A DNA stretch of 64,000 bases from Parabacteroides johnsonii DSM 18315 (GTDB lineage Bacteria > Bacteroidota > Bacteroidia > Bacteroidales > Tannerellaceae): positions 4,526,001 to 4,590,000 of the forward strand of contig NZ_CP102285.1 of the NCBI RefSeq assembly GCF_025151045.1, read 5' to 3'. The translations under genes and the position numbers were made by a program. The notes beneath the pieces are model-generated. The model had not been told where the DNA came from. It ran no database searches and worked only from the letters and a program-made list of their open reading frames with translations. Position 1 is the stretch's first letter; every line of letters begins with the position of its first letter. Positions 28,211-52,351 of the stretch are shown piece after piece.

Positions 28211-28786
28211 TTAGGGGACGTAAAAGAAATCCAGTAAAAATAGCAGGCAAGGAAGGTAGTCTTTTAACTCTTTGCGTAATAAATTCAGCGCTTTACTGAT
28301 ATGAAACTCGATACTCTTCACTGAAAGGTTGGTTTCCTTGGCTATTGTTTGGTAATTTTTCCCTTCGTACCGGCTCATGATAAAGATATGTCTGGACTTT
28401 TCCGGTAGTTTTGCCAGAGCTTGGTTAACAAGCTCCTGTACTTCATTGCTGAACAATGTTTCCGGCTCACATGCTTCCAGGCTGGAGATACGCATTTGCA
28501 GTTCCCACTCTTTGTTGGATAGCAAATTTTCAGCGATATTATTCCAAGTACGTTCACGCTGAAGGTAATCCAGGCATTTGTTTTTTAGGGTGACTAGTAT
28601 ATATAAAGGTATGTCTTTGACTTCTTCTAACCGATGCCGGTTTTCCCAATAATACATCAGACTTTCCGTCACCAGGTCTTCTGCTGCTTCTTGATTATAT
28701 GTATAAGAATAGGCGAACCGAATGTATCGGTCCCGATGGGTGACGAAAATATTATTGAATCGTTTTATGTCCGTTTTCTCATCCAT
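28211..28786 (-). CDS. ECF RNA polymerase sigma factor (Bacteroidetes expansion type)
   Basis: Sigma-70 family ECF factor of 191 residues. Region 2 spans about 18-75 (YIRFAYSYTYNQEAAEDLVTE) and region 4 about 130-175 (LPEKSRHIFIMSRYEGKNYQ and the HTH with LSVKSIEFHISKALNLLRK). In this family the sigma factor is released from FecR when the matching SusC binds its glycan, and it then transcribes the susCD operon. The last residues (LLFLLDFFYVP) are unusually hydrophobic. The likely partner FecR lies beyond the hipBA insertion. A consensus -7 box (28833-28840) and an inverted-repeat element sit just upstream. Confidence 0.92.
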   Translation of the reverse strand: MDEKTDIKRFNNIFVTHRDRYIRFAYSYTYNQEAAEDLVTESLMYYWENRHRLEEVKDIPLYILVTLKNKCLDYLQRERTWNNIAENLLSNKEWELQMRISSLEACEPETLFSNEVQELVNQALAKLPEKSRHIFIMSRYEGKNYQTIAKETNLSVKSIEFHISKALNLLRKELKDYLPCLLFLLDFFYVP

Positions 28787-28808: not shown

Positions 28809-29051
28809 TAGTCCTAAGGGAACTATGGCCTTCAAAATTATAAATTTATTTCCAAATTGTTGAAATATGTTGTGAAGAATTAATCTTATTGCGCATTTTA
28901 ACTATTTTAGGCTAAATAATTGCACTTGATATAAAGTAAGGGCCATTAGGTAAGAAAGCATCCCTACAACATAATAGGCTGGACTATAAAGTTCTAAACA
29001 TTCTCTTCCTTTTATTGATGAAAAGATATGGCCATAGTTCCCTTAGAACTA
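28809..29051. repeat. Inverted repeat pair flanking the sigma-gene promoter region (candidate invertible segment)
   Basis: The sequence at 28809-28830 and the complement of 29030-29051 agree at 21 of 22 bases; the shared part is GGCCATAGTTCCCTTAG followed by RACTA. They enclose 199 bp (28831-29029) with no gene, which fills most of the 325-bp gap before the nitroreductase gene. The putative sigma-gene -7 box lies just inside the left copy. Inverted repeats of about 20 bp around a ~200-bp promoter segment are the usual layout of invertible promoters in Bacteroides, but the right copy is also a perfect hairpin that could simply be a terminator. Confidence 0.45.
28833..28840 (-). promoter_or_regulatory. 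-7 box of the ECF sigma gene (TAATTTTG)
   Basis: TAATTTTG on the minus strand fits TANNTTTG, about 47 bp before the ATG at 28786. The leader would begin with the short hairpin AGTTC-CCTTA-GGACT. It lies inside the inverted-repeat segment, next to its left arm. Confidence 0.45.
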
Positions 29052-34869: not shown

Positions 34870-36453
34870 TTAGCCTTCGTAAGGAATCAGTTCTTTTAAT
34901 ATTTGTTCCTTATACCACGGATCGTCTGCCTCTTTCAGCAGAGGGACCATTTGTCTGCATAGTTCGGAAACGATTTCATGATTCTCCTGCAGGGGGAGAT
35001 TATGCATCTGGTACGGGTCTTTCAAATCATCGAATAGAAGTGCTTCTTTTAGTGTTTTCGTCTTCCGGTCGATTGTGAGTGATAGGGTGTATTGATGTGT
35101 CTTGATTCCTCTCGCTACCGGAAAATAAGAAATGACTTTTCCTTCGGCATCCTTTTCTCCGTCGATATTCTTGATGTACAAGGCTCCCTGGCGTAAAGGA
35201 ACGGAAGAGTCTTTTCCTGTAAAACGTCCTGCATAATTCCGCCCTTCCACTGCTGCTGGGATCTGCTTTTCCAAGCCGCACAGTCCGAGTATGGTCGGCA
35301 TGATATCGGGAGAAGACAACAAAAGTTCGCTGTCGATCCGAGGGGTTACTTTTCCGGGAAAACGAATCATAAACGGGACGTTCATACTTTCGGCATAAGG
35401 CGAGTTTTTGGGATCGTCCGTATTTTGGCTGCACATGGTTTCTCCATGATCGGAAGAGAAAATGACGAGGGTATTCTTATCCAATCCCTGCTTTTCGAGT
35501 TCGTCCAGTATCCGTCCGAAAGCCCGGTCGACGCCTGTCACCGATGCAAAGTAATAACGTACGGAAGCTGCTTTTTTCATCTCCCGGTTTGCGTTCGGGC
35601 GAATGAGTAGGCTGTCCAATGGAAGGTCTTTGTATAAGTCGTAATCTTCCTCCATGCAGTCTTCCAGAGAAGCATACGGGCTATGAGGCGGATTAAAGCT
35701 GACCATCATGAAGAACGGCTTTTTAGGGTCACGCACGTTCCCTTCGTTCCGCAGATAGGAGATGGCTTTATCCGCTTCATGTTCGGGAGACCACTCGTTG
35801 ATTTCATGTTTTACTCCTTCCGTATCCCAATAATGCGGATGCTTGTGCACGTCATAGGTTCCATATGAATACCAATAATCGAAGCCGTGCCGGCGATCTG
35901 CCGGAGTGTAGGCGTCCCAGGCCGGGACACGGTCTTCCACATATTTTCCGGGACGTTCCGGGTCGTTGGGAGTGGGGCAGTCGACATGCAATTTCCCGAT
36001 ATAAGCACAATTGTAGCCAGCCTGGCTGAACACGTCGCTGATGCAGGTCGCATCTTCGCGTAATGAACTGATCGGACGGTTGGCATTACAGTTTAGGGGA
36101 ACTCCGCTATGTTCCGGATACATCCCCGTCAACAATATTCCCCGGTGCGGACTGCTCAGCGGGCAGTTGCTCATAGCCGAAGTCAGTACAACGGATTCTT
36201 TCGCAAACCGGTTCAGATTAGGCGTATGCACCGGATCTCCCTCGAAATTCACCGCTTCCCGGAATCCTGCTTCTCTCCAGAAACCCATCGCATGGTTGCG
36301 CATTTGGTCCGGGAAGATGTAGATGACGTTAGGAGTGCTCGATAAACCTTGGGGGGTAACAGGCTTTTCTTTGCATCCTTGAAAGGAAAAAAGAAGGATA
36401 CCCCCTAAAAGATATGCCGCATCATGGCTGGAATGATTGAGTTGTTTATACAT
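34870..36453 (-). CDS. S1 sulfatase, Ser-type, predicted lipoprotein
   Basis: Sulfatase of 527 residues. The lipobox FQGC (Cys27) predicts membrane anchoring. The modified residue is Ser100 in S100-S-P-H-R104, followed by GILLTG; metal-binding Asp49 is in FPDQ and a second in SSDHGE. Needs an anSME-type maturase. The segment YDVHKHPHYWDTEG and the double-histidine stretch are as expected for a substrate-binding loop, but the subfamily is not assigned. On the same strand as, and downstream of, the SusC/D pair at 36661-41627, separated by a terminator, so it may have its own promoter (36593-36600). Confidence 0.87.
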   Translation of the reverse strand: MYKQLNHSSHDAAYLLGGILLFSFQGCKEKPVTPQGLSSTPNVIYIFPDQMRNHAMGFWREAGFREAVNFEGDPVHTPNLNRFAKESVVLTSAMSNCPLSSPHRGILLTGMYPEHSGVPLNCNANRPISSLREDATCISDVFSQAGYNCAYIGKLHVDCPTPNDPERPGKYVEDRVPAWDAYTPADRRHGFDYWYSYGTYDVHKHPHYWDTEGVKHEINEWSPEHEADKAISYLRNEGNVRDPKKPFFMMVSFNPPHSPYASLEDCMEEDYDLYKDLPLDSLLIRPNANREMKKAASVRYYFASVTGVDRAFGRILDELEKQGLDKNTLVIFSSDHGETMCSQNTDDPKNSPYAESMNVPFMIRFPGKVTPRIDSELLLSSPDIMPTILGLCGLEKQIPAAVEGRNYAGRFTGKDSSVPLRQGALYIKNIDGEKDAEGKVISYFPVARGIKTHQYTLSLTIDRKTKTLKEALLFDDLKDPYQMHNLPLQENHEIVSELCRQMVPLLKEADDPWYKEQILKELIPYEG

Positions 36454-36660: not shown

Positions 36661-38376
36661 TTACCATCCTGGGTTCTGATCCCCTTTCAGGTTCGGGTTC
36701 TTTTCCATTTCACCATTTGGAATCGGCCACAGGTAATCGCGTTCCTGAACGACACGATTATAATAGAACTGTCCGGTGAAACCTTTAACTTGTCCATCCA
36801 GGGATTCGAGCAGTTTCCAACGTTTCATGTCACTGAAGCTATGGCCTTCACCTGCTAATTCGACAGCACGTTCATGTCTGATACGTTTGAAGACTTCGTC
36901 CTTGGTAGTTGCCTTCAAATACTCCGGACCACTGTTGAGGCCTGGCATACCGACACGTTCACGAACCTGATTGATCTTTTCTACAGCTTTGGTTTGCTGA
37001 TCTGTTTGGTTGTAGCATTCAGCCAGCATCAACAGTACGTCTGCATAGCGGATCAATGGGAAATTGATTGGCGTATCTTCACGGTTGTTGATGGCTCCGT
37101 CCATGTCGTATTCGGCAACAAACTTGCGCCATAAATACATTTCGTAATTACCATTGACGCGGATAAAACCATTCTTTTCGTTCGTTTGTCCGGATTTTGC
37201 GGTAATGACATATTCCGTATTCATCGGAGCATTGGAATACCAACCTTTATAAGTTGTATATGGCAGGATGATAGAAGCAGCCATACGCGGGTCGCGTTTG
37301 CCGTACATTTCTAACAATTTATCTTTGGCAGCCGGGTAAGTTACCACTTTATCAAAATCGTCGTTCAATGTGGCGTAGAATGTCTCTTTTTTCACATCGT
37401 CGCTTGCGTTGAATCCCGGGATCACTTCGTCCCAGTTGAACGGACGGCCATCAGACCATTCATAAGAGTCGACGAAGTCGGTAGCTGCCATTACATTGTT
37501 CCAGCAGCTTCCGTAAGAAGCACGGTTCCCCATGTAGAAGGTTGTCGGCATACCAAAGTCTGTACCTACACCACCGATGTTCTGGATGGCGAAAATCATT
37601 TCGGAACTTTCGTCTCCACCCGGCTTGAACAGGTTGGCATAGTCCGAATATAAAGCATATTCACCACTGTTGACTACGCTTTCGAAGCAAGTAGCGGCTT
37701 CTTGGTACTGATTGTTGAAAAGAAGTACTTTTCCTTTCAGAGCCATTGCGGCGCCGGATGTGGCACGGCCTTTGTTCGAGTCGTCCCATTTTGCCGGCAG
37801 GTGAGCGATAGCATCGTCCAAGTCCTGGATGATAAACTTACGCACATCTTCAGCCGAGCTTCTCGGATTCAACATATTGGAGAAATCTTCAGCTACGATT
37901 GTCTTTTCATCATAGAGAGGAATGCCGCCCCAGAAATCGAGCAAAGTGAAATAGTAGAGACCGCGCATGAAGCGGGCTTCCGCTTTGTAACGGCTCTTCA
38001 AATCGTCCGACATATCGCAATTGTCAACATTCTGCAAGATGATGTTCGCACGTGTGACACCTTCATATAATTGTTTGAACTTATTACCGACAGCACCTTC
38101 TGTTGTCGTATAGGTTCCTCTTCCGATATTCGGGTAGGAAGGAGCGTCATATCCGGATGCTATGCCACCCAAACAGTCGAAACCGAACTGGCGGCCAAAC
38201 ACGTCATCATGTGTCATTTGGCTGTAAACGCCCATCATTGCCTGGTCGGCATGGTCTTGTGTCTGGAAGAAGGTTCCGGCACTCAGTTGGTCTTCCGGAA
38301 AACGATCCAGGTCATAGCAACTGCTCATGAATAAAAGTGAAGCAGCGCAAGTGAAGAATAATTTATACTTGTTCAT
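36661..38376 (-). CDS. SusD-family outer-membrane lipoprotein (left arm of PUL2/3)
   Basis: Lipoprotein of 571 residues, lipobox MSSC (Cys20) followed by YDLDRFPEDQLS. The SusD fold is shown by FMRGLYYFTLLDFWGGIPLYDE and the C-terminal RIRHERAVELAGEGHSFSDMKRWK. It is closely similar in plan to the SusD at 45843-47561 (same CYDLDR start, same NPGW end), so the two SusCD pairs are paralogues. It begins 14 bp after the susC stop on the same transcript. Ligand unknown. Confidence 0.93.
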   Translation of the reverse strand: MNKYKLFFTCAASLLFMSSCYDLDRFPEDQLSAGTFFQTQDHADQAMMGVYSQMTHDDVFGRQFGFDCLGGIASGYDAPSYPNIGRGTYTTTEGAVGNKFKQLYEGVTRANIILQNVDNCDMSDDLKSRYKAEARFMRGLYYFTLLDFWGGIPLYDEKTIVAEDFSNMLNPRSSAEDVRKFIIQDLDDAIAHLPAKWDDSNKGRATSGAAMALKGKVLLFNNQYQEAATCFESVVNSGEYALYSDYANLFKPGGDESSEMIFAIQNIGGVGTDFGMPTTFYMGNRASYGSCWNNVMAATDFVDSYEWSDGRPFNWDEVIPGFNASDDVKKETFYATLNDDFDKVVTYPAAKDKLLEMYGKRDPRMAASIILPYTTYKGWYSNAPMNTEYVITAKSGQTNEKNGFIRVNGNYEMYLWRKFVAEYDMDGAINNREDTPINFPLIRYADVLLMLAECYNQTDQQTKAVEKINQVRERVGMPGLNSGPEYLKATTKDEVFKRIRHERAVELAGEGHSFSDMKRWKLLESLDGQVKGFTGQFYYNRVVQERDYLWPIPNGEMEKNPNLKGDQNPGW

Positions 38377-38390
38377 GATGTTTAATTCAA

Positions 38391-41300
38391 TTAAAAGGTG
38401 ACATTAATACCTAATACAGCCGACTTCATAGCCGGATAACCTAAACCGCTGATTTCCGGATCAAGACCTCTGTAAGAGGTGAAAGTGAAGAAGTTCTCCA
38501 AACTGCCGTAGAAGCGAAGTCTTTCCAGTTGCATTTTTTCCGTAACGGATTTAGGCAGAGTATAACCCAATTGGATGTTACGGATTTTCAAGAATGCTTT
38601 GTTCGACAGGTAGAAGTCGCTCATTTGCTTGTTGATCGTATTTTGAGATTGCAGCAGACGCGGATAAGTTGCATCTGTCCGGCCTTCTGTCCAACGGCCT
38701 TCAGCCACTTCTTTATTCAACTGGTAACCGAAACGAACGGATGAGGTGTTCGCCAAGTCATGTTGCCAGTAGGCTTTCACACCTGCTTGTCCCTGGAAGA
38801 GAATGGAAAAGTCAAAACCTTTATAGGCGGCATTCAGGTTCAAACCGAATTGGAATTTCGGGTTCGGGCCATCGCTGACGATTTCGCGGTCATTCATGTC
38901 GATAATACCGTCTCCATTGCTATCGATATAAAGCAAATCACCTTTCTGAGGAGTACCGAATGCAGCAAACGGATTGACTTTTTTACCTGTTTTTTCGTCT
39001 ATCGGTGCGTTGTCGATCATTTTTTGTACTAAAGCCAAGTCTTCATCTGTCTGGATGATACGATCTACACGCAGCAAATATTGAGAGTTGATCGAGTGTC
39101 CTTCCCAAATCAAGTTGGCTCCGTCAATGGACTGACCGCCTTTTTCTTTCCCTTTGAACTTGTTGACCTTGTTTCTGACGAATGTGAAGTTTCCGTTCAC
39201 GCCATAAGAGAAGTCTCCGATATGGTCTTGCCAACCAAGTGTCATTTCAATACCCTGGTTTGTAACAGTAGCACTGTTCTGCTTAGGTATGGAAGCTGTA
39301 CCGTGTACGTCAGGAGCAGGCAGGTTGATCAGGATGTCTTTTGTCTTTTTGTTGAAATAGTCGATCGTACCGGTAAGTTTGTTGTTAACCAATCCGAAAT
39401 CGACACCGACGTTGGTCATGTAGGTGGATTCCCAAGTCAAGTTAGGATTAGCCAATTGAGCTTGGGCAAGTCCCAGTACTAAGGCATTGTTCAAGGTATA
39501 GTTGAAAGCACTTCCGCTGCTTGGTTTGTTGGCATAAGTAGCGATGGCATCATAATTGCCGACGGAGTTATTACCTAAAGAACCATAAGAAAGACGGAGT
39601 TTCAAGTTGCTCAATCCTTTTTCTACCCAATTTTCCATGAATGCTTCCTGGTCCATACGCCAAGCTACGGAAGCAGAGGGGAAATAACCGGTACGTTTAT
39701 TGGAAAGGAATCGGGATGATTGGTCTGCACGAAGGTTCACTTCCAACAGATATTTATTTTCCCAGTCTAAATTGACGCGCCCGAAGAAAGAACGCATAGC
39801 CCATTCCGTACTTGAACCGGATGCTGTCGCATCACCGATGGCGGCATTGATCACATTCAAGCTCAAATCGATCATGTCATATTTCGTTGCAGAAAAATTA
39901 CGGCTACGATACATTTCCTGGCTGGCTCCGACCATTGCATTTAAGCCTAACCGGTCATTTGCCAAACGTTTTTCATAGCGTAGGACGACATCACCGAAGA
40001 ACCGTTCGACTTTGCCGTCATAATTCATGATATTCGTTTTACCACGGTTTGTCCAAGTAACAGTTTCGTTGTAGAAGTTCCATTGATCAATGAAGACCGG
40101 TTTCTTTTCACGCAACTCATCTACAAACTCATATGAATAAGAAGCTGTAGCTGAGAAGCCTTCAAAAGGTTTGATGGTTCCGACAAATCTTGAACGCAGG
40201 TTTGTTTTACGAATGTTTCCTGCTACACGGTTCAAGCGTGCCAGCGGGTTGTTATTGGCTGATTGAGCATCGTCTTCTCCATTGTTCATAGCTCCGTATC
40301 GTCCGTCCGGTGCACGGAACACCATACCGGGAGTTGTTGCTGAAGCATATGTGAACACATCATCGACAGATGTGTCTTTTTTATCACTCTCCGTATATTT
40401 GGCAGACGGATCCATATTGGATACATAGCCACTGACTTGAGCCCCTAAATTCAACCAGGGTTTTATATCGGCGGAGATATTGACACGTCCGTTATACTTC
40501 TCGAATCCGGTATTTTCCATAACACCCGGATTTTTTTGATAACCGAATGAAGAGTAGAAACGGATTTTATCGCTACCGCCGCTCATTGAGATTACATGGT
40601 TGTGGGATGTCGAATTTTTGAATGTCTCATCCAACCAGTTGGTATTCGGATATTTCAACGGATTCTGTCCGCCGTCTTTCCGCCATTCGTCGATAATTTC
40701 TTGTGAGAATTGTGCCTTTAAACCTGAATTGAGATATCCTTCGTTGATTAATTCCATGTAGGTGGCATAGTCTGATACCGGATCCATGGAACTTGGGATT
40801 TCAGGAGAGGTGAATGAAACATAACCGTTATAATCCAATTTGATAGAGCCGGCTTTACCTTGCTTGGTCGTGATTAATATGACACCATTGGCAGCACGGG
40901 AACCGTAGATAGCTGACGAGGCAGCATCTTTCAATACGGTCATTGATTCGATATCCTGGGGATTGACGGTGTTAATACCTGCTTCGACGCCATCGATAAT
41001 AACCAACGGAGCGGAGTCATTCAGCGTACCCTGTCCACGCACTTTGATGGAGGCATTGTCATTACCCGGCTGATTGGTTGAACCTTGTACGTTTACACCA
41101 GCTGCCAAACCTGCCAGTGCATGGGAAACGTTGGTGATAGGGCGGCTTTCTGTCAGTTCTGCAACATTAATGGTCGAAACAGATCCGGACAAGTTAACCT
41201 TTTTCTGTGTGCCGTAACCTACAACTACAACTTCTTCCAAAGCTTGTGAGTCTTCGGCTAGTTTAATGTTGAACGAAGTCTGATTGTTTACGGGGATTTC

Positions 41301-41627
41301 TTGGTCCTTATATCCGATATAAGAAACAACAAGGATGGAATTAGGAGATACTTCTAAAGAGAAATTACCGTCCATGTCGGTAATTGTACCGTTAGTAGTT
41401 CCTTTTTCTACGACATTAGCTCCAGCGATAGGACCCAGAGCATCTTCTACTACACCTTTGATACTGTGTTTTGCCTGTTGAGGAGAAGCTACAACAGGAG
41501 TAGGTTCATTTGAACCAAACGTATCGGTAGAAGGATTAGCTGAGGCCATTCCGATTGATGCCAGGAACATGGAAGCTCCCAGGAACATCGCTCTCGATAC
41601 ATAAAAGCGTTTAAAATCTTTTGTCAT
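38391..41627 (-). CDS. SusC-family TonB-dependent receptor (left arm of PUL2/3)
   Basis: Outer-membrane importer of 1078 residues: signal peptide (about 1-30), regulatory-like beta-sandwich (about 55-125), TonB-box-like EEVVVVGYG (131-139), plug (SSAIYGSRAANGVILITTK), barrel ending GINVTF. There is no STN domain, so regulation is not through FecR. The first 44 bases of the coding sequence, and 7 bases before it, are identical to the divergent susC at 42582. A consensus -7 box 134 bp upstream lies inside the inverted-repeat-bounded region. Confidence 0.94.
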   Translation of the reverse strand: MTKDFKRFYVSRAMFLGASMFLASIGMASANPSTDTFGSNEPTPVVASPQQAKHSIKGVVEDALGPIAGANVVEKGTTNGTITDMDGNFSLEVSPNSILVVSYIGYKDQEIPVNNQTSFNIKLAEDSQALEEVVVVGYGTQKKVNLSGSVSTINVAELTESRPITNVSHALAGLAAGVNVQGSTNQPGNDNASIKVRGQGTLNDSAPLVIIDGVEAGINTVNPQDIESMTVLKDAASSAIYGSRAANGVILITTKQGKAGSIKLDYNGYVSFTSPEIPSSMDPVSDYATYMELINEGYLNSGLKAQFSQEIIDEWRKDGGQNPLKYPNTNWLDETFKNSTSHNHVISMSGGSDKIRFYSSFGYQKNPGVMENTGFEKYNGRVNISADIKPWLNLGAQVSGYVSNMDPSAKYTESDKKDTSVDDVFTYASATTPGMVFRAPDGRYGAMNNGEDDAQSANNNPLARLNRVAGNIRKTNLRSRFVGTIKPFEGFSATASYSYEFVDELREKKPVFIDQWNFYNETVTWTNRGKTNIMNYDGKVERFFGDVVLRYEKRLANDRLGLNAMVGASQEMYRSRNFSATKYDMIDLSLNVINAAIGDATASGSSTEWAMRSFFGRVNLDWENKYLLEVNLRADQSSRFLSNKRTGYFPSASVAWRMDQEAFMENWVEKGLSNLKLRLSYGSLGNNSVGNYDAIATYANKPSSGSAFNYTLNNALVLGLAQAQLANPNLTWESTYMTNVGVDFGLVNNKLTGTIDYFNKKTKDILINLPAPDVHGTASIPKQNSATVTNQGIEMTLGWQDHIGDFSYGVNGNFTFVRNKVNKFKGKEKGGQSIDGANLIWEGHSINSQYLLRVDRIIQTDEDLALVQKMIDNAPIDEKTGKKVNPFAAFGTPQKGDLLYIDSNGDGIIDMNDREIVSDGPNPKFQFGLNLNAAYKGFDFSILFQGQAGVKAYWQHDLANTSSVRFGYQLNKEVAEGRWTEGRTDATYPRLLQSQNTINKQMSDFYLSNKAFLKIRNIQLGYTLPKSVTEKMQLERLRFYGSLENFFTFTSYRGLDPEISGLGYPAMKSAVLGINVTF

Positions 41628-41725
41628 AATAACACCAGATTGATTAATAAATTGATAATAATTCTCGTTTCTCTAAATAGGCACTTTGTGTTTTTCCATT
41701 GTGTTTTTCACAAAAGTGTGTTTTG

Positions 41726-41748
41726 ATCTAAGTTCTTCAAGAACTATG
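41726..41748. repeat. Left arm of 23-bp inverted repeat between divergent susC genes
   Basis: Contains the dyad AGTTCTTCAAGAACT and ends CTATG. It matches the complement of 42479-42501 at 21 of 23 positions. It sits 12 bp from the -7 box of the left susC, at the very beginning of that gene's predicted leader. Confidence 0.7.
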
Positions 41749-41760
41749 ACCAAAACGCTG

Positions 41761-41768
41761 CAAATTTA
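41761..41768 (-). promoter_or_regulatory. -7 box of the left susC (TAAATTTG)
   Basis: TAAATTTG on the minus strand matches TANNTTTG, giving a leader of about 130 nt. There is no clear -33 element, as is common for activator-dependent PUL promoters. It lies inside the segment bounded by the inverted repeats. Confidence 0.5.
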
Positions 41769-42478
41769 GATGTTAATAATGTGCATGGATGTATAATTTT
41801 ATCCATTTGATATGCACTAATCTTCCAACGGTGAGTTTTTAGCAATATGTTAAGTGTTTATATATTAGCATATTGTGATGTATGTGTTTTATATAACATA
41901 TAAATTAGGCTTAATGAGCAATATATTTATTTAGCATTCATGTTTGAATATTTACATGGATACACATCGAAACGTAAAAACGATACAACTAAGGCGAATT
42001 CTCATAATTTGGCAGATATGAACCATAAATGGAGATTTGTCACCATGTTGTTTAAGCATGTATTACACGAAATTCCAATTCGGCTTCTCTCCGTCCTATA
42101 AACCAATTGATTATCATGCTATACAAGGATGAAGGCAAGCGTCCGGACAGGCTTCATCTCAAAAATTTACCTTCACCCTGTCTCGTCCTGATTTAGGTTG
42201 ACCATGCCACTCTGCTTCATCTTCACCACTATATATTTAAGTGAAAATGGGACTTTCCGAGGCCGACTTACCTCAGATGAAGGCAAACATAAGCGGAGAA
42301 GCCACTTCTATTACTTATATTCACCTTCAAGATGTTTATAATCAAATTATTACATGTGTAGGTGATGGCAATTTGCGGATTATGGCGAAAAAATAAAAAA
42401 ACGGATTGAATAAACTCTATCTCTCCATAGTCGTATGCAGTAATTATCAATATTGAATCGTAAATGATGACGAAGCAC

Positions 42479-42501
42479 CATAGTTCTTGAAGGACTCAGA
42501 T
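42479..42501. repeat. Right arm of 23-bp inverted repeat between divergent susC genes
   Basis: Contains CATAGTTCTTGAAGGACT, an almost perfect dyad, about 80 bp before the right susC start. It matches the complement of 41726-41748 at 21 of 23 positions. The sequence just inside this arm has TAAATGAT (42461-42468) where the left side has TAAATTTG. Confidence 0.7.
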
Positions 42502-42581
42502 ATATTTTGAGCATGTAAAAACACAAACGATAATTAATTGAGATATGAATTATAAATCTAATTTACTAATCCAATGTTATT

Positions 42582-45500
42582 ATGACAAAAGATTTTAAAC
42601 GCTTTTATGTATCGAGAGCGATGTTTTTGGGGACTTCCATGTTCTTAGCATCGATCGGGATAGCTTCTGCTAATCCTTCTACCGGTACACTGAGTTCTGC
42701 AGAACTCAGTCCTGTTGTCGCTTCGCCACAACAGGCTAAATACACTATTAAAGGTATAGTTGAAGACGAATTTGGTCCGGTCGCTGGAGCAAATGTCGTA
42801 GAAAAAGGAACGACTAATGGGACGATTACAGACATGGATGGAAACTTTGCACTTGAAGTGAATCCGAATTCGACTTTAGTTGTTTCATTTATCGGTTATA
42901 AAGAGCAGGAGATTCAAGTTAACGGGCAAACTTCGTTTACAATTAAATTGAAAGAAGATTCTCAGGCACTTGAAGAGGTTGTTGTTGTCGGTTATGGAAC
43001 GCAGAAAAAAGTGAATCTTTCCGGTTCTATTACGTCTGTTAATGTAGGGGAAATGACCGAAAGTCGTCCGTTAACAAGTATTTCTACTGCACTTGCAGGT
43101 ACTGCGCCAGGTGTTCATATAGCGTCAACTAACAACTTGCCGTCGAATAATGGAGATGCAGAAATCACAGTTCGCGGTCAAGGAACATTGAACAATTCTT
43201 CGCCCTTGGTTATCATTGACGGTGTGGAAGGGAGTATGAGTTCCGTTAATCCCCAAGATGTGGAAACCATGACTGTTTTGAAAGATGCAGCCTCGTCAGC
43301 TATCTATGGATCACGTGCTGCAAACGGTGTTATACTTATTACAACAAAGTCGGGTAAATCTGGCAAAATGAAATTGGAGTATAACGGTTATGTCTCATTC
43401 GAAACTTTAAAGCAGCCTTACGAAGTGATAAGCGATTATGCGACCTATATGGAGCTAATGAATGAAGGGATGCTTAACAGCAACAAAGATGCTCCTTTCT
43501 CACAGGCAACCATTGATCTTTGGCGTGAAAAATCGAAAGATCCAAATGGCTTGACAAACGGAGTCCCTAATTACTTGGCTTATCCTAATAGTAATCTTTT
43601 TGATGTATATCAAACAGGAGTTTCTCATCAACACAATATTTCGGCCTCGGGAGGAAGTGAAAAATTGACTTATTATACTTCTTTCAATTATTTAAATAAT
43701 CCAGGTATTCTGGAAAACATGGGGTACGAAAAATTTAGTCTCCGTGCAAATATTGATTCACAGCTGAAAGATTGGTTGAAAGTAGGTGTGAATATGAGTG
43801 GTTATGTCGCCAACACGACTCCTGTTACAGAAAATCTGGATGACATCTACACGTATGGATTGACAGGTGGTAACCCTGGAGTTGCTTATTTGGATGATCA
43901 AAATCGATTGGGTATCAATGCTAATCCGGAAGACGACCCGCAAAATGCAACGAATAACCCGTACAATCGTTTGCGGAATGTGACAGGAAATATTGATATG
44001 AACAGTATGAAGACACGTTTATATGCAATTTTGACACCGTTGAAAGGATTGACAATTCAAGGCTCTTATACATACGATTACTACGATAAGAAGAAGGTGT
44101 CCAAGCCGAACTTCGTGCCATTATATAATTTCCAGACTGGTGCACTGTATTCTGACGGAGTCGGACAGACAAGTATTACAAATTACAGTGAAAAGACCAT
44201 TCGTAACTTTATGGATGCGACAGCTCGCTACGAACGGAATTTCTTTGATGATCGTTTAAGTGCAACTTTGATGGTTGGTGCCAGCCAAGAACAATACAAG
44301 TATTCGGATTTTGGTGTAACACGCAAAGATTTAATTGACCCGTCGTTAGGGGTTGTCGAAGGAGCCTATGGAGATTATTCGGGAGAAGGTAATACCTATG
44401 AATGGGCAATGCGTTCATTCTTCGGACGTTTAAATTTAGGGTGGGATGACCGTTATTTGCTTGAAGTAAACCTTCGTGCCGATGGTTCCTCTCGCTTCAA
44501 CAAGAACAACCGATGGGGGTATTTCCCGTCTTTCTCAGGAGCTTGGCGTTTGTCTGAAGAGGCATTTATGGAGGATACCAGAAGCTGGTTGGATAATTTG
44601 AAACTTCGTGCATCCTACGGATCGTTAGGTAATAATACACTGGGGGATAATCGTGATAAGGATGGAAACTATATGTCTCAGTCAATGTTTGCACAAACTA
44701 ATTACGTTTTGGGGCGTACTGTCGTAAATGGATTGTCACAGACTGCGATAGCAAATGCTGATTTAACATGGGAAACGACTTATATCACGAACATCGGTGT
44801 TGATTACGGCCTGTTGGGAAACCGTCTTTCTGGAAGTATTGAATATTTCGACAAACGTACGAAAGGTATTTTGATTGACTTGCCGGCGCCGATGGTACAT
44901 GGTAATGCAACAGTACCTAAACAAAACTCAGCCAAGGTTTCAAACCGAGGTATCGAATTCACGACCAGTTGGAATGATAAGATAGGAAAAGACTTTTCTT
45001 ATAATGTTGGTTTTAATTTCACCTACATTAAAAATAATGTTGATAAGTTTAAAGGAGGTGATGCTTCTTATGATGGAGCCCGTATGTTGAAAGAAGGATT
45101 ACCAATCTGGTCTTTATATGTATTGGAGGCTGACCGTATCATCCAGACTGACGAAGATTTGGCGATTGTCGAACAAATGGTCGCCAATAACCCGGATGCA
45201 TTCACTGCATTCGGAACACCTCAGAAAGGTGATCTCCTGTATAAAGACGTTAACGGAAGAGATGAAAACGGGGAACTGACAGGTAAGCCTGATGGAAAAA
45301 TTGATAATGATGACCGTGTGGTAGTAGGTAACGGACAGAATCCTAATTTTACGTTTGGTATGAACTTAGGTTTCGAGTGGAAAGGTATCGATTTCTCAAT
45401 GTTATTTCAGGGACAGGCTGGCTTGAAAGATATTTTCCACAGTAATTTGTTCCGTAGTGTGGTTCGTCAAGGATATCAAATCAATGCGGATGTTGCCGAT

Positions 45501-45809
45501 GGGCGTTGGTATGAAGGACGGACAGATGCAACTTATCCTCGTTTCTTGGACTATAGTGATACACGGAATGAACAGAATTCTACGTTCTGGGTAGCCAATA
45601 AAAACTATCTGAAGATTCGTAATATCACGTTGGGATATACATTGCCAGCTCATTGGACTCAGAAAGCCTATTTGGAACGTGTTCGCATTTACGGAAGTTT
45701 GGAAAATTTCTTTACGTTTACTTCATGGAAAGGATATGATCCGGAAGTAAGTGGTGTTACTTACCCGACTATGAGACAAGCTGTAGTTGGTGTGAACGTC
45801 TCGTTTTAA
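42582..45809 (+). CDS. SusC-family TonB-dependent receptor (right arm of PUL2/3)
   Basis: Importer of 1075 residues, same plan as the left-arm SusC: signal peptide, regulatory-like domain, EEVVVVGYG box, plug with SSAIYGSRAANGVILITTK, barrel ending GVNVSF. The N-terminus MTKDFKRFYVSRAMFLG is identical to the left-arm paralogue, then the sequences diverge in the barrel, suggesting different cargo. No STN domain. The coding sequence is more AT-rich than the lyase and GH88 genes downstream. susD follows after 33 bp. Confidence 0.94.
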   Translation: MTKDFKRFYVSRAMFLGTSMFLASIGIASANPSTGTLSSAELSPVVASPQQAKYTIKGIVEDEFGPVAGANVVEKGTTNGTITDMDGNFALEVNPNSTLVVSFIGYKEQEIQVNGQTSFTIKLKEDSQALEEVVVVGYGTQKKVNLSGSITSVNVGEMTESRPLTSISTALAGTAPGVHIASTNNLPSNNGDAEITVRGQGTLNNSSPLVIIDGVEGSMSSVNPQDVETMTVLKDAASSAIYGSRAANGVILITTKSGKSGKMKLEYNGYVSFETLKQPYEVISDYATYMELMNEGMLNSNKDAPFSQATIDLWREKSKDPNGLTNGVPNYLAYPNSNLFDVYQTGVSHQHNISASGGSEKLTYYTSFNYLNNPGILENMGYEKFSLRANIDSQLKDWLKVGVNMSGYVANTTPVTENLDDIYTYGLTGGNPGVAYLDDQNRLGINANPEDDPQNATNNPYNRLRNVTGNIDMNSMKTRLYAILTPLKGLTIQGSYTYDYYDKKKVSKPNFVPLYNFQTGALYSDGVGQTSITNYSEKTIRNFMDATARYERNFFDDRLSATLMVGASQEQYKYSDFGVTRKDLIDPSLGVVEGAYGDYSGEGNTYEWAMRSFFGRLNLGWDDRYLLEVNLRADGSSRFNKNNRWGYFPSFSGAWRLSEEAFMEDTRSWLDNLKLRASYGSLGNNTLGDNRDKDGNYMSQSMFAQTNYVLGRTVVNGLSQTAIANADLTWETTYITNIGVDYGLLGNRLSGSIEYFDKRTKGILIDLPAPMVHGNATVPKQNSAKVSNRGIEFTTSWNDKIGKDFSYNVGFNFTYIKNNVDKFKGGDASYDGARMLKEGLPIWSLYVLEADRIIQTDEDLAIVEQMVANNPDAFTAFGTPQKGDLLYKDVNGRDENGELTGKPDGKIDNDDRVVVGNGQNPNFTFGMNLGFEWKGIDFSMLFQGQAGLKDIFHSNLFRSVVRQGYQINADVADGRWYEGRTDATYPRFLDYSDTRNEQNSTFWVANKNYLKIRNITLGYTLPAHWTQKAYLERVRIYGSLENFFTFTSWKGYDPEVSGVTYPTMRQAVVGVNVSF

Positions 45810-45842: not shown

Positions 45843-47561
45843 ATGAAAAAACATATATTGTCTTTGATGGCAGCTGTATCTCTACTCACAGGTTGCTACG
45901 ATTTAGACAGGACTCCTTATGACCAAGTGAGCTCGGAGGCAATGTGGCAAACGGCAGACCAATGCAAGCAAGGATTGATGGGAGTTTATGCCTCCTTGAA
46001 AGAGGATGACTTGTTCGGTAAAATGTTTTTGATCGATGTCAACTCTGATGTGGCTGCCGGTTATGATCAATACGAAGTACTACAGCTGGGGACCGCTACT
46101 TCAAAAACTGGTTTTATGAATAGCAAATGGCAGGATGGGTACAACAGTATCCAACGTGCAAATTTAGTTATCCGAAATGTAGCAGATGCTCCAATTGAAG
46201 AAGGTACAAAGAATCAGATATTGGGAGAAGCACATTTCTTACGGGCTTTAGTCTATTTCCATCTAATGGATTATTTCGGAGGTCTCCCTCTTTACGATGA
46301 ATCAGTCGATTTGGAAAAAGATTTTAATAATCTGATGAATCCGAGAAGTTCGGTTGAAGATACACGTGCTTTTATTGTCAAGGATTTAGAGAAGGCATTG
46401 GAGTGCGGTCTGCCAGAGGCATGGGATAGTGAAAACTATGGACGTGTGACTTTAACTGCCGTTCAAGCATTGCTGGGAAAAGTCTATTTATACGCGAAAG
46501 AATATGACAAAGCTGTCGAATGGTTGGAAAAATCTACGAGTGGACATGAATTATATAGTGATTATGCGGGTTTGTTTAATTTAGATGGTGGTCACACCAG
46601 TTCGGAGATGATCTTTTCGATCGTTAATCTTGGTGGTACCGGTAACAGCTATGGTATGCCACTCTGTTTTTATGCAGGAACACGTGCTTCTTATGGCAGT
46701 TGTTGGAATAATACGGTTCCTTCATCTACATTGATTGAAATGTATGAATACAAAGATGGGCGTCCTTTTGATTGGGATGAACTTTTCCCTGGATTTACAA
46801 CAAGTAATGATGTGAAGGAAAGTGTGTTCAGATGTACAGCTAATTCAAGTGCAACGGAGATCATAAGTATGCCTGAGGAAAACAGAGCTAAGATTTTACA
46901 GATGTATGAAGATCGTGATCCTCGTATGCAAGCGACTGTTATTTTGCCTTATACGACATATCAAGGTTGGTATAGCAACAAAAAAACAGAGATGCTCTTT
47001 GTTGTCGCTAAAAATGAAAAAGGAACTATAACGTTGTCTTCTGCTAATGGTTTTGTTTATAATAATAGAGGTGGTTGGGAAACTTATTTCTGGCGTAAAT
47101 ATGTTCCGGAAGGAGACTGGGATGGTGCAATTACAGATCGTTCACATACACCAGTAAACTTCCCTATTATCCGTTTGGCTGATGTTTATTTGATGTTGGC
47201 GGAGGCTTATAATGAACAAGGTAATTCAACGAAAGCAGTTGAATATATTAATAAAGTTCGCGAGCGTGCTGGTATCGCCTTGCTAAATAGTGGCCCTGAT
47301 TATCTGAAAGCGGTGACAAAAGATGAAATATTCCAACGCATATTTAAGGAAAGGGCTGTCGAATTTGCAAATGAAGGACTTCGTGATAGTGATTTACGTC
47401 GTTGGCAACTATCCCATACGATGTTAAACAGAGAAGAGTATGGGTTTACTGGTAAACGTATGTTTACCCGTGTATTCCGGGAAAATCGTGATTATCTGTG
47501 GCCAATACCGCAAGATGAAATAGATATGAATAGTGCTATTAAGCAAAATCCGGGATGGTAA
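45843..47561 (+). CDS. SusD-family outer-membrane lipoprotein (right arm of PUL2/3)
   Basis: Lipoprotein of 572 residues, lipobox LTGC (Cys18) then YDLDRTPYDQ. SusD fold with FLRALVYFHLMDYFGGLPLYDE and C-terminal RIFKERAVEFANEGLRDSDLRRW. Ends NPGW like its left-arm paralogue. Followed by an intrinsic terminator before the enzymes. Confidence 0.93.
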   Translation: MKKHILSLMAAVSLLTGCYDLDRTPYDQVSSEAMWQTADQCKQGLMGVYASLKEDDLFGKMFLIDVNSDVAAGYDQYEVLQLGTATSKTGFMNSKWQDGYNSIQRANLVIRNVADAPIEEGTKNQILGEAHFLRALVYFHLMDYFGGLPLYDESVDLEKDFNNLMNPRSSVEDTRAFIVKDLEKALECGLPEAWDSENYGRVTLTAVQALLGKVYLYAKEYDKAVEWLEKSTSGHELYSDYAGLFNLDGGHTSSEMIFSIVNLGGTGNSYGMPLCFYAGTRASYGSCWNNTVPSSTLIEMYEYKDGRPFDWDELFPGFTTSNDVKESVFRCTANSSATEIISMPEENRAKILQMYEDRDPRMQATVILPYTTYQGWYSNKKTEMLFVVAKNEKGTITLSSANGFVYNNRGGWETYFWRKYVPEGDWDGAITDRSHTPVNFPIIRLADVYLMLAEAYNEQGNSTKAVEYINKVRERAGIALLNSGPDYLKAVTKDEIFQRIFKERAVEFANEGLRDSDLRRWQLSHTMLNREEYGFTGKRMFTRVFRENRDYLWPIPQDEIDMNSAIKQNPGW

Positions 47562-47634: not shown

Positions 47635-49083
47635 ATGACTAAAATTTATATGAACATGCAGAATGCAAATTTGTTATTGACTGCTTGCCTTGCTATAGTT
47701 TCTGTAGCCGATGTAATGGCACAATCGAAAAAACAAAATGTATTGTTTATCATTTGTGATGACCTTCGCCCTGAGTTGGGCTGTTATGGACAGAAGCAGA
47801 TCAAGTCCCCGAATATTGATCACTGGGCAGCACAAAGTGTATTATTTAACCGGGCGTATTGCAATATTGCTGTATCCGGTGCTTCCCGTGCAAGTCTGTT
47901 GACCGGATTGCGTCCGACAAAAAATCTGTTACAGGCTTGGAATACCCGTACCGATGTTGATGTACCTGACGCAGTTACCATACAGAAATGTTTTAGAGAC
48001 GCTGGGTATATAACGATTGCAAACGGAAAGATATATCATCACCAGGATGAGGCCTCCATGAAATATTGGGATGATGTCATGCCTCCCGTACCAGGTACGG
48101 CAATGGGATACCACTCGGAGGAAAACTTGGCTTTAATGCAAAAACAGAAAGAAACCGGTAAAGGTCGGCGTGGATATTTTTATGAGCATGGAGATTTTCC
48201 CGAAAAGGACTATCTGGATTGGCAAATCGCTGATAAGAGCATACAGGATTTGAAAAAAATGAAAAAACAGGAAAAGCCTTTTTTTCTTGCCGTAGGATTC
48301 ATTCGTCCTCATTTGCCTTTTGTTGTGCCGCAGAAGTATTGGGATCTGTATGATCATTCCAAAATTGAAATTCCTGATAATTATATATTAAAACCAGGCA
48401 ACAACATTCCGGAGCGTGCTTTGACTAATTGGTCCGAGTTGAGGGCCTATAGTGGAATTCCGGAACAGGGTCCTTTGGATGAGGCGACTGCCAAATTGAT
48501 GATACATGGTTACTATGCTTCAGTCTCTTTTGTGGATGCACAGATCGGTCGTTTGTTGAAAGCGTTGAAAGAAGAAGGACTCGATAAAAATACGACTGTC
48601 ATATTGATTGGCGATCATGGCTGGAATTTGGGAGAACATGGTACTTGGTGCAAACACAGCATAATGAATACTTGTTTGCATTCGACTCTCATTATCAATT
48701 CGCCTGAAATAAAAGCACCATACCGTTGTGAACAGATTGTGGAGTTTGTCGATTTGTATCCGACTATGTGTGATGTTGCCGGGGTTAAACAACCTGTTCA
48801 GTTGGAAGGAACCAGCCTGCTTCCTCTGTTAAAATCACCAGAAGCAAAAACAAAAGGGTATGGGGTTTCCCGCTGGGCAAACGGTTTCACTTTTATACAG
48901 GATCAGTATTTCTATACGGAATGGAGGGACAAAGACGAACGGATTATAGATCGGATGTTGTTTGATCATTCGGAGGATGAAGATGAGAATTATAATGTGG
49001 CAGGAGAAAATGAGAATAAAGAGATTATAGAAGCGTTAAGCATAAAGCTTTTGGAGAATAGGGGTGCTAATTATGAAAAATAA
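47635..49083 (+). CDS. S1 sulfatase, Ser-type, iduronate-2-sulfatase-like
   Basis: Secreted sulfatase of 482 residues. Metal Asp pair CDDLRPELGCYG (41-52), modified Ser81 in S81-G-A-S-R85 followed by ASLLTGLRP. The DDLRPELGCYG plus FNRAYCN pattern and VGFIRPHLPFVVPQKYW are typical of the iduronate-2-sulfatase group (S1_7). Ser-type, needs anSME. The start is uncertain: ATGs at 47635, 47650 and 47656 are all in frame, and the first abuts the T-tract of the terminator, so 47650 (MNMQNANLLL, better signal peptide) may be real. The S1_7-like type and the neighbouring lyase and GH88 suggest removal of sulfate from uronate residues. Confidence 0.87.
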   Translation: MTKIYMNMQNANLLLTACLAIVSVADVMAQSKKQNVLFIICDDLRPELGCYGQKQIKSPNIDHWAAQSVLFNRAYCNIAVSGASRASLLTGLRPTKNLLQAWNTRTDVDVPDAVTIQKCFRDAGYITIANGKIYHHQDEASMKYWDDVMPPVPGTAMGYHSEENLALMQKQKETGKGRRGYFYEHGDFPEKDYLDWQIADKSIQDLKKMKKQEKPFFLAVGFIRPHLPFVVPQKYWDLYDHSKIEIPDNYILKPGNNIPERALTNWSELRAYSGIPEQGPLDEATAKLMIHGYYASVSFVDAQIGRLLKALKEEGLDKNTTVILIGDHGWNLGEHGTWCKHSIMNTCLHSTLIINSPEIKAPYRCEQIVEFVDLYPTMCDVAGVKQPVQLEGTSLLPLLKSPEAKTKGYGVSRWANGFTFIQDQYFYTEWRDKDERIIDRMLFDHSEDEDENYNVAGENENKEIIEALSIKLLENRGANYEK

Positions 49084-49203: not shown

Positions 49204-51132
49204 ATGAGAACACAACGATTCATCACAATCGTGTGCCTGTTGCTTTGGACAGTTGCACACCTGCATGCGTATGAAAAACGCAACTTGTTGCAGAAGGAGG
49301 CCGATTTTGAGAAAGTCAAATCCGCGTTGATAATGGGGCAGAAGTGGGTGCCTTATCCTGATTATTCCGACCGGGCCGGTTGGGACAAATTCCTCGGTGA
49401 TTATAAGGAAGATTATATCCGGAAAGGGGAATGCTTTTTGGATTATGAATGGAAGATTGTAAAGGCAACCGATTATCTGGAATATGGACGGAGTGGCAGC
49501 CGGACGATTATGGAGAGTCCGTTTGGCAAGAATAATTCTGCACTTGGAAGCCTGTTTATGGCAGAGATGGCTGAAGGAAAGGGACGCTTTATTGACCAAA
49601 TTATCAATGGCGTTTTTGTCAGTTGTGAAATGACGAGCTGGGCATTGTCGGCTCATTTGGGATTACAGAAAATCGGAGGATGCTTTCCGAGCAATGAAGA
49701 ACATGTGATCGATTTGGGGTCGGGAAATCTGGCCTCCCAGTTGTCTTGGATTTATTATTATCTGAAACCTTCTTTTGATAAGGTAAATCCCTTGATATCA
49801 AAAAGGTTGCGATATGAACTACAGGTCCGTATCCTTGATACCTATATGAATGAAGATCATTTTTGGTGGATGGCCTTCCATTTGAAGCCCGGCGGATTGG
49901 TGAATAACTGGAATCCGTGGTGTAATTTCAATGTGCTGCAATGTTTCTTCCTGCTCGAAAATGACCGGGATAAATTGGCAAAAGCTGTTTACCGGACGAT
50001 GACTTCCGTGGACCATTTTATTAATTATACGCATGGAGACGGAGGTTGCGAGGAAGGCCCTTCTTATTGGGGGCATGCCGCCGGAAAGATGTACGATTAT
50101 CTGCAGATGCTTTCTGACGGGACAGGCGGTAAAGTTTCCATATTCGATCAGCCTATCATTAAGAATATGGGTGAATATATTGCCCGGTCCTATGTGGGGA
50201 ACGGCTGGGTAGTCAATTTTGCCGATGCTTCCGCCAAAGGAGGAGGCGATGCCGATCTTATTTTCAGATACGGGAAAGCGACGGGTAGTCCGCTAATGAT
50301 GAGCTATGCCGCTTATCTCAAGAGCCTTTCTGACAAAGACGATATTCCCTCCGGTGATCCTTTCCGTCTATTCCAAACCTTGCTCTCCCGTGAAGAGCTG
50401 GAAGGGAGGAGTGCCGATTACCAGTCTCCCAGCTATTCTTGGTATCCGGAAACCGAATTTTGCTATATGACCAACAAGAACGGCTTTTTCGTGGCAACTA
50501 AAGGTGGCTATAATAATGAAAGCCATAATCACAACGATGTAGGATCTTTCTCCCTGTACTTGAATACGATGCCTGTCTTTATCGATGCCGGAGTCGGTAC
50601 ATATACCCGCCAGACATTCAGTTCCGAACGCTATTCTATCTGGACGATGCAAAGCAACTATCACAATTTGCCTCTGATCAACGGTGTGGCGCAACGTTTT
50701 GGCTCGGAGTATAAGGCTACGGAGGTACAGTTTGATCCGAAACACATGTATTTCTCTGCCAATATTGCAACCGCTTATCCGGAAGAGGCCAATGTGAAAA
50801 AGTGGATTCGTTCGTACCGCTTGGGAAAGAACACACTGAAGATAGAAGACTCATTCTCCTTGGATAGGGCAGAGCGGCCGAACCAGATCAATTTCCTGAC
50901 ATGGGGAAAAGTGGATATCTCGGTTCCGGGAGCCGTGACGGTCGAAGTGAACGGCGAGAAGGTACGTCTGACGTATGACAAGAACATCTTTACATCGACG
51001 GTCAAGACGATTCGTCTGGACGATCCGCGCTTGTCGAACGTCTGGGGTGAAGAGATCTACCGAGTTTCCTTGAACGCTAAAAATATGCCGTTTTCCGGCT
51101 CCTATACCTATACAATAACAACAATAAAATAA
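49204..51132 (+). CDS. Heparinase II/III-family polysaccharide lyase
   Basis: Exported lyase of 642 residues: signal peptide (1-22, ending LHAY), alpha-helical toroid (about 60-400) with WNPWCNFNVLQ and HGDGGCEEGPSYW, then the C-terminal beta-sandwich of the heparinase II/III type (GYNNESHNHNDVGSFSLYLN, about 440-460, with catalytic-type His/Asn). Lyases of this fold cleave uronate-containing glycans (heparin, alginate, ulvan, gellan and others) by beta-elimination. The exact PL family (12, 21, 33 or 37) cannot be chosen by eye. The next gene, GH88, removes the unsaturated uronate that such lyases make. Confidence 0.87.
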   Translation: MRTQRFITIVCLLLWTVAHLHAYEKRNLLQKEADFEKVKSALIMGQKWVPYPDYSDRAGWDKFLGDYKEDYIRKGECFLDYEWKIVKATDYLEYGRSGSRTIMESPFGKNNSALGSLFMAEMAEGKGRFIDQIINGVFVSCEMTSWALSAHLGLQKIGGCFPSNEEHVIDLGSGNLASQLSWIYYYLKPSFDKVNPLISKRLRYELQVRILDTYMNEDHFWWMAFHLKPGGLVNNWNPWCNFNVLQCFFLLENDRDKLAKAVYRTMTSVDHFINYTHGDGGCEEGPSYWGHAAGKMYDYLQMLSDGTGGKVSIFDQPIIKNMGEYIARSYVGNGWVVNFADASAKGGGDADLIFRYGKATGSPLMMSYAAYLKSLSDKDDIPSGDPFRLFQTLLSREELEGRSADYQSPSYSWYPETEFCYMTNKNGFFVATKGGYNNESHNHNDVGSFSLYLNTMPVFIDAGVGTYTRQTFSSERYSIWTMQSNYHNLPLINGVAQRFGSEYKATEVQFDPKHMYFSANIATAYPEEANVKKWIRSYRLGKNTLKIEDSFSLDRAERPNQINFLTWGKVDISVPGAVTVEVNGEKVRLTYDKNIFTSTVKTIRLDDPRLSNVWGEEIYRVSLNAKNMPFSGSYTYTITTIK

Positions 51133-51139
51133 TTGAATC

Positions 51140-52351
51140 ATGATGAAAAATTTGATTGCATTTGCTTTTTCGGCATTTCTGCTATCTTGTGCAGGTGCCC
51201 CTAAAACAGAAGAAAAAAGTTTTATCGACGAGAACATCGATTTTGCCCGTGCACAAATAGGGAATGAGATCGGTGTGATCGAAGCGAGTGGAAAATGCTT
51301 GAACCCGGTGACGCTTAAAACGGACAGTTCTGTCTATTATTGCGGTTATGCGGATTGGCGGAGCGGCTTTTTCCCCGGATCAGTCTGGTATTTGTATGAA
51401 TTAACGGGTGATAGTACGTTGCTGCCGTTAGCCACCAAATATACGGAGGCCATAGAGGAAGCCAAGAATCTGACCTGGCATCATGATATCGGATTTATTG
51501 TGAATTGCAGTTTCGGGAATGGCTTGCGTCTGACCGGAACGCCTTCTTATAAGGATGTGATGGTACAAGCAGCCAAATCGTTATCTACTCGTTTTCGTCC
51601 GGCTGCCGGGATTATCCAGTCGTGGGATGTGGAACGCGGATGGCAGTCCGAACGGGGTTGGGAATGTCCGGTTATCATTGACAATATGATGAATCTGGAA
51701 CTGATGTTCGAAGCTACGCGTTTGTCCGGTGATTCTTCTTTCTATAAGATCGCGGTGTCGCATGCCGACCGTACCATGCAGGAACATTTTCGCCCGGATG
51801 GTAGTTGCTACCATGTGATCGACTACAGTGTCAAAGATGGCAAAGTGCGTCATCGCCAGACGGCACAAGGATATGCCGACGAATCTATCTGGAGTCGCGG
51901 ACAGGCATGGGCTATCTATGGTTATGCGGTATGCTATCGTGAAACCAAAGATCGTAAATATTTGGATCAGGCCTTGAAAACGTTCAATATGATGAAGAAT
52001 CTGAAGAATATGCCGGAAGATCTGATTCCTTATTGGGATATGTCGGCTCCGAACATCCCGAACGAACCACGCGACGTTTCGACGGCTTCCTGTATCGCTT
52101 CCGCCCTCTATGAGATCAGCACGATGGATGTGCCGGATGCAGCCGGCTATAAAACGTATGCCGACAGTATCATGGTTTCTCTTTCTTCTCCGGCTTACCG
52201 GGCTGCATTGGGTACGAACGGAAACTTCCTGCTGATGCATTCCGTAGGAAGCATCCCTCACAATTCAGAAATAGATGTTCCGCTGAACTATGCCGATTAT
52301 TATTATCTGGAGGCATTGAAACGTAAACGGGATATCGAGAAAGGTATTTAA
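51140..52351 (+). CDS. GH88 unsaturated glucuronyl hydrolase, lipoprotein
   Basis: Enzyme of 403 residues with a lipobox LLSC (Cys18). The (alpha/alpha)6 barrel has the two catalytic Asp residues expected for GH88, in TWHHDIGF (Asp116) and VIIDNMMNLEL (Asp182), plus YADESIWSRGQAWAIYG. The family hydrates and cleaves terminal 4,5-unsaturated uronate from oligosaccharides produced by lyases. It begins 7 bp after the lyase stop (translational coupling likely); the start may be either of two adjacent ATGs (51140 or 51143). It complements the lyase and the 2-O-sulfatase-like enzyme of this locus. Confidence 0.92.
   Translation: MMKNLIAFAFSAFLLSCAGAPKTEEKSFIDENIDFARAQIGNEIGVIEASGKCLNPVTLKTDSSVYYCGYADWRSGFFPGSVWYLYELTGDSTLLPLATKYTEAIEEAKNLTWHHDIGFIVNCSFGNGLRLTGTPSYKDVMVQAAKSLSTRFRPAAGIIQSWDVERGWQSERGWECPVIIDNMMNLELMFEATRLSGDSSFYKIAVSHADRTMQEHFRPDGSCYHVIDYSVKDGKVRHRQTAQGYADESIWSRGQAWAIYGYAVCYRETKDRKYLDQALKTFNMMKNLKNMPEDLIPYWDMSAPNIPNEPRDVSTASCIASALYEISTMDVPDAAGYKTYADSIMVSLSSPAYRAALGTNGNFLLMHSVGSIPHNSEIDVPLNYADYYYLEALKRKRDIEKGI

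Follow-up and report, generated by a model that had tools for sequence, protein, structure and literature searches.

Promoters that invert between repeats are well known in the Bacteroidales, and the closest described systems come from Bacteroides fragilis. The targets of the master DNA invertase Tsr0667 in this organism are three SusC/SusD clusters plus nine further regions (PMC4747536, PMC11852207). The capsule promoters are bounded by inverted repeats and switched by one global enzyme, Mpi (PMC4747536, PMC12632263). PMC4747536 further describes Tsr19 (BF2766), a tyrosine recombinase that inverts a local and a distant promoter, and reports that transcription at a Tsr19 locus falls as the repeats between promoter and gene increase in number. 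SusCD orthologs are also listed among inverted loci in a review (PMC12632263). The locus presented here resembles the Tsr0667 system in its many distant sites and its susC/D targets, with 9 of 14 loci directly upstream of susC-like genes, but it belongs to another genus and places one promoter between two divergent susC operons. With the Mpi system it shares promoters between inverted repeats and a presumed single global enzyme; however, Mpi is a serine recombinase that turns one operon ON or OFF, whereas here the choice would be between two. Tsr19 differs in its targets, which are EPS and outer-membrane/vesicle genes rather than divergent susC/D. In the sections available of PMC4747536, PMC3090145, PMC10939037, PMC11852207, PMC8748976, and PMC12632263, we found no description of an invertible promoter between divergent susC operons, and one may exist in print. 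Two points are of interest here: the predicted choice is made between two divergent importers, and a single enzyme probably serves 10 to 14 site pairs.

The locus lies in a 64,000-nucleotide stretch of the Parabacteroides johnsonii DSM 18315 chromosome, analyzed whole and referred to here as the window. The 730-bp stretch that separates the two operons is very probably a promoter inverton, one of 14 pair loci in this genome, flipped by a site-specific recombinase. This reading is built on sequence comparisons within the genome and across the genus, and the features concerned are collected in Table 1.

Table 1. Features of the predicted inverton, its flanking operons, and the candidate recombinase; positions are those of the window unless a genome position is given.
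Feature	Position	Strand	Remarks
Sulfatase after susC/D-A	34870..36453	-	Pfam
susD-A	36661..38376	-	Pfam
susC-A (TonB-dependent receptor)	38391..41627	-	Pfam; predicted on in present orientation
Left recombination site (predicted)	41726..41748	-	17-bp core 41730-41746, 5-bp spacer 41736-41740
Invertible segment (predicted), 730 bp	41749..42478	.	No ORF of at least 100 aa
-7 box TAAATTTG of predicted promoter	41761..41768	-	Faces left into susC-A
Degenerate -7-like TAAATGAT	42461..42468	+	Other (right) segment end
Right recombination site (predicted)	42479..42501	+	17-bp core 42481-42497, 5-bp spacer 42487-42491
susC-B	42582..45809	+	57% identical to susC-A; predicted on when segment inverted
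susD-B	45843..47561	+	48% identical to susD-A; Pfam
Sulfatase of B operon	47635..49083	+	Pfam
Heparinase II/III-like lyase	49204..51132	+	Pfam
Glycoside hydrolase family 88	51140..52351	+	Pfam
Hybrid two-component regulator adjoining locus	53384..57436	-	Pfam
Candidate 402-aa tyrosine recombinase	G000:C1:2439291-2440496 (genome)		Arm-binding, SAM-like, and catalytic domains

The initial annotation had described two 23-bp inverted repeats matching at 21 of 23 positions, and a repeat search of the window recovers the same coordinates, with arms of 23 nt that are 91% complementary and 730 nt between them. A 22-bp repeat query allowing up to three mismatches finds two places in the window, on opposite strands, which are the arms; none are found in 100 shuffles. 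Each arm holds the site TAGTYC-N5-GRACTA with one mismatch, its core is itself nearly palindromic (AGTTC-N5-GAACT), and the spacer of the right site equals that of the left when both are read outward. The interior had been taken to contain only regulatory DNA. It does lack any ORF of at least 100 aa, but it is not purely regulatory, since the stretches 42002-42247 and 42263-42400 resemble dispersed intergenic repeats, and similar stretches occur at no fewer than seven further positions of this genome and at additional ones in a relative (G014). Similarity was likewise said to stop sharply outside the 23 bp, which is true at the arm edges but not farther out, as it resumes in the flanks with short leader matches (41685-41708 and 42513-42533) and with 75% identity over 554 nt across the susC 5' ends (41095-41648 and 42561-43114). 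Rfam at gathering scores returns three tRNAs in the whole window and no match of any kind at the inverted-repeat segment.

As proposed from the sequence, the minus strand carries an exact -7 box (TAAATTTG) that begins 12 bp inward from the left arm. Its degenerate counterpart TAAATGAT is present on the right, but 10 bp inside the arm rather than at the mirrored 12, and no outward copy of TAnnTTTG, the Bacteroides -7 consensus as given in PMC4747536, occurs within 60 bp of that end. The segment thus holds a predicted promoter that reads out of one end, a layout repeated in five relatives, with 14 bp from the TAnnTTTG box to the 17-bp site core in the window and in all five. The flanking genes prove to be two divergent paralogous SusC/D operons, as had been stated, with susC/susD pairs assigned by Pfam and identities of 57% between the SusC and 48% between the SusD proteins (Table 1). 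Because sulfatase, lyase, and GH88 genes are neighbors, the imported glycan is probably sulfated and contains uronic acid.

A scan of the complete, single-contig genome (4.75 Mb) that tolerated up to one mismatch places TAGTYCNNNNNGRACTA (TAGTYC-N5-GRACTA) at 38 positions. Among these are 12 pairs no more than 1 kb apart, 11 of them inverted with identical spacers and one direct, the latter involving a third site copy at the 2.40-Mb locus. When the 38 sites were scattered at random 20,000 times, the mean number of inverted matched pairs was 0.0056 and the maximum 1. A control pattern, the site read backwards, is commoner than the site itself (95 versus 38 places), and it is therefore the pairing and not the count of single matches that carries the signal. 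When the partner is allowed two mismatches, 14 pair loci emerge that take in 25 of the 38 places and have members 121 to 792 bp apart, in a scan of 23 stretches (488,016 bases) picked mainly for holding sites or recombinases; at 10 of these loci each member has at most one mismatch. The remaining 13 places were all inspected and have no partner within the stretches read. Eleven of them fall inside reading frames of at least 100 aa, as would be expected of chance matches.

The spacer is equal within pairs and varies by locus; it reads TTGAA in the present pair, for instance, but TTGTA in the pair at 2.40 Mb and TAAAA in that at 1.84 Mb. The crossover region of a recombinase requires such agreement, and a protein-binding site or a leader hairpin does not. 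A susC-like gene begins 84 to 178 bp outside a site in the nine susC loci, on both sides in three of them, the present locus included, and on one side only in the other six. In two loci an ECF sigma gene begins 23 to 36 bp outside a site, and in three the neighboring target gene is not clear-cut. Outward TAnnTTTG boxes within 60 bp inside a site occur at 9 of 28 ends, belonging to 9 of the 14 pairs and never to both ends of one pair, against 0.92 of 28 ends expected from shuffles; the controls give 2 inward inside, 1 outward outside, and 3 inward outside. At five pairs an exact outward box is missing from these 60 bp. One pair (4448081/4448408) extends into a FecR gene and may be spurious. A Tsr0667 repeat consensus of AGTYYYN4GDACT was reportedly given by Nakayama-Imaohji et al. 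in 2009, and we take both arms of the present segment to fit it. The repeat sequence of Mpi sites differs from the present repeats.

Among 38 Parabacteroides genomes, our own included, a DNA search returned matches in seven. In six genomes the promoter end could be recognized by TAnnTTTGCA followed by 14 bp to the site core. It faces the susC side in the window, in P. massiliensis (L094, G013), and in RGIG9024 (L083, G020). In G014, P. faecis (L085), and P. goldsteinii (L088, G012) it points toward the lyase instead. The left flank of G014 aligns as far as window 41748, where the left repeat ends, and from there on the interior is reversed (window 42247 to 41655 at 81%); G020 has the same flanking genes as G014 (susC-B and lyase) but the opposite segment orientation. 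In G014, G020, and G012 the gene nearest the segment on the lyase side is the ortholog of this lyase. Both sites of a pair share their spacer in all six genomes, among which three spacers occur: TTGAA in the window, G014, G013, and G020, and others in P. faecis and P. goldsteinii. Both orientations occur among species, although such differences could stem from inversions that are old and fixed. Four of 20 named lyase loci have a site pair and one, in P. acidifaciens, has a lone site at a contig end; the 15 without a site belong to other genera or further relatives, some on short contigs, and to Parabacteroides sp. 52.

The draft genome of P. acidifaciens 426-9 (G001) breaks at these sites. Contigs C125, on the susC-A side, and C100, on the susC-C side, stop 2 bases past the 17-bp core, both with CG, and the segment is absent from the P. 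acidifaciens matches among the best 12 of 28 candidates scored. At a second divergent susC locus of this strain, whose genes resemble those at genome 2402832-2403909, the site core marks precisely the end of C66 and the start of C98. A third pair (C125:894/1106) lies within a contig; hence not every pair breaks the assembly. A short-read assembler would be expected to halt at the last shared base if both orientations were present, where a 20-bp repeat alone normally would not stop it, and contig ends at both sites of two loci suggest a mixed population, though an assembly may break at a palindromic repeat for some other reason. The initial reading of an invertible promoter segment is supported by these contig ends together with the matched-spacer pairs, the species orientations, and the one-ended TAnnTTTG.

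The susC/D sets that adjoin the segment differ between species. The window has sets A and B, P. massiliensis has B and C, and P. acidifaciens has A and C; set B also adjoins the segment in G014, G020, and G012, and in G012 it is followed by a third set. In addition, the first 200 bp of the G014 susC-B are 92% identical to window susC-A and 80% to window susC-B. The differing sets and this susC-A-like start suggest that recombination at or near the sites may also have shuffled whole importers.

A conserved site-specific recombinase was sought elsewhere in the genome, and the 402-aa tyrosine recombinase of Table 1 emerged as the best candidate. Our own genome has 31 PF00589 and 5 PF00239 matches, and a scan of about 1.5 kb to either side of each uncovered no site pair; a lone one-mismatch site near L124 has no partner, and five 19-kb stretches of the same genome are also without a recombinase beside a site pair. 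We compared the tyrosine recombinases, leaving out five short or weak rows, with G013, G014, and G020 (a 90%-complete draft), which share the site family. Matches of at least 90% in all three were obtained for XerD, XerC, and the 402-aa gene. The gene assigned as XerD scores above the NCBIfam cut-off of its model, whereas the one assigned as XerC has XerC as its best model but falls below that cut-off; both were set aside as housekeeping enzymes and stay possible candidates. L114 and L115 recur as well (96-98% in G013 and G020, 82% in G014) and look like mobile-element integrases.

The 402-aa gene has a SusC-like gene at a distance of no more than about 6 kb in our genome and in all 12 relatives compared, with a SusC that differs by species, and an AAA ATPase gene of the MgsA/RarA type, presumably RarA, is nearby in our genome and in eight of the 12. 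In four of these relatives (G002, G003, G004, and G005) a site pair sits between divergent susC-like genes 4.8 to 5.4 kb from the recombinase. A full-length match is present in 18 of 38 genus genomes. Stop codons interrupt the match in G002, G003, G006, and G018; G002 and G003 nevertheless show recombinase frames of 393 and 395 aa. Genomes with the candidate average 8.4 exact sites (n = 18) and those without it 1.35 (n = 20; Mann-Whitney p 1.1e-5). The backwards control pattern follows the same trend more weakly (4.1 versus 2.0, p 3e-4), and genome size and relatedness therefore confound this association. Exceptions without the candidate are G021 (13 sites) and G008, G010, and G032 (3-4 sites), and those with it but only 1-2 sites are G017, G019, and G023. 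Order-wide, 3 of 149 genomes match at E 1e-80 with at most 12 candidates per genome scored, one of them outside the genus (53%). On this evidence we put the chance that the 402-aa protein is the enzyme for the sites at about even.

The arrangement can also be read without any inversion, each repeat being a conserved 5'-leader element, an RNA hairpin or operator, that was copied with the duplicated susC operon. The left site sits just downstream of the predicted promoter in the present orientation and folds (z -2.5 with DNA parameters), and the two susC genes are paralogous in their leaders and 5' ends, as this would have it. However, a leader has no need of a 5-bp spacer that is equal within pairs and varies by locus, nor would it explain why pairs also adjoin two ECF sigma genes, why six of the 14 loci have an adjacent susC on one side only, why 11 of the 13 unpaired places lie within reading frames rather than leaders, or why the G014 interior is inverted relative to its flank. 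A conserved susC leader would be expected as single copies with one core sequence before susC genes generally, whereas the sites observed are paired and vary in their spacer by locus. The leader reading is weakened but not void, and we regard it as highly improbable. A less distant departure from the promoter inverton accepts recombination but confines it to evolutionary time, with fixed inversions and exchange of susC cassettes and no present phase variation. The different susC/D sets at the locus fit this well, as does the G014 susC-B start that is nearer to window susC-A, whereas the paired contig ends in a single draft genome suggest a mixed population, and at many loci the spacers still match and the promoters are intact, which points to upkeep. 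We consider past-only recombination unlikely, though the most credible of these alternatives.

The class of the enzyme can be questioned as well. The genome does carry five PF00239 genes and the sites are nearly palindromic, both of which would suit a serine invertase of the Hin/Mpi type, but the variable stretch spans 5 bp and not 2 bp and is identical within pairs, and the conserved candidate, which in relatives is linked to site pairs, belongs to PF00589. A 5-bp stretch that varies between loci and is equal within pairs fits the overlap region of tyrosine recombinases. A serine invertase is accordingly a poor prospect, slightly poorer than recombination confined to the past.

Under the favored reading, the two TAGTYC-N5-GRACTA sites would be joined by a site-specific enzyme, most likely a tyrosine recombinase, that flips the interior, which carries a single recognizable Bacteroidales promoter at one end. 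In the orientation of the assembly this promoter would drive susC-A/susD-A leftward; after inversion it would drive susC-B/susD-B and probably also the sulfatase, lyase, and GH88 genes behind them. The assembly holds one orientation, and we infer that the segment flips in this strain and that only one of the two operons is expressed at any given time. All pair loci (10 to 14) are probably served by one enzyme. Whichever orientation is taken, a site would lie in the leader, where its hairpin may have a side effect, given that the number of repeats between promoter and gene inversely tracks transcription at a Tsr19 locus of B. fragilis.

More broadly, and only tentatively, since we judge it somewhat less likely to hold than to fail, a Parabacteroides master tyrosine recombinase may run about a dozen promoter switches, three of them two-way susC/susD selectors that set one importer per cell per locus, and the same sites may have driven cassette exchange between species. 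If true, glycan import and SusC surface exposure would vary within a clonal gut population by choice of importer and not by simple ON/OFF switching. SusC epitopes are reported to elicit T-cell responses (PMC10939037). With a common site sequence and one conserved candidate enzyme, a phase-variable set of Parabacteroides importers would be testable by a single gene deletion.

Several further arrangements were seen near the candidate recombinase and at other site pairs. In G005 (L262 2999-6201) the susC-like gene beside the recombinase-linked site pair is split into two frames. Between G013 and G014 the susC/susD block by the candidate recombinase is inverted (L269 8116-15047 versus L268 3941-10121), and no site pair was found at that block. 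The window itself contains a second inverted site pair with a matched spacer (28809-28825 and 29035-29051), where an outward TAATTTTG 7 bp from the 28809-28825 site faces an ECF sigma gene (28211-28786, minus strand); the pair on C125 of P. acidifaciens (894, 1106) is similar to it. Another divergent susC pair with inverted sites lies at genome 2402832-2403909, with TACATTTG at one end only and the third site copy in direct orientation 73 bp from one paired site. At genome 1835736-1836362 a third divergent susC pair encloses inverted sites 362 bp apart, again with the box, here TATCTTTG, at one end only.
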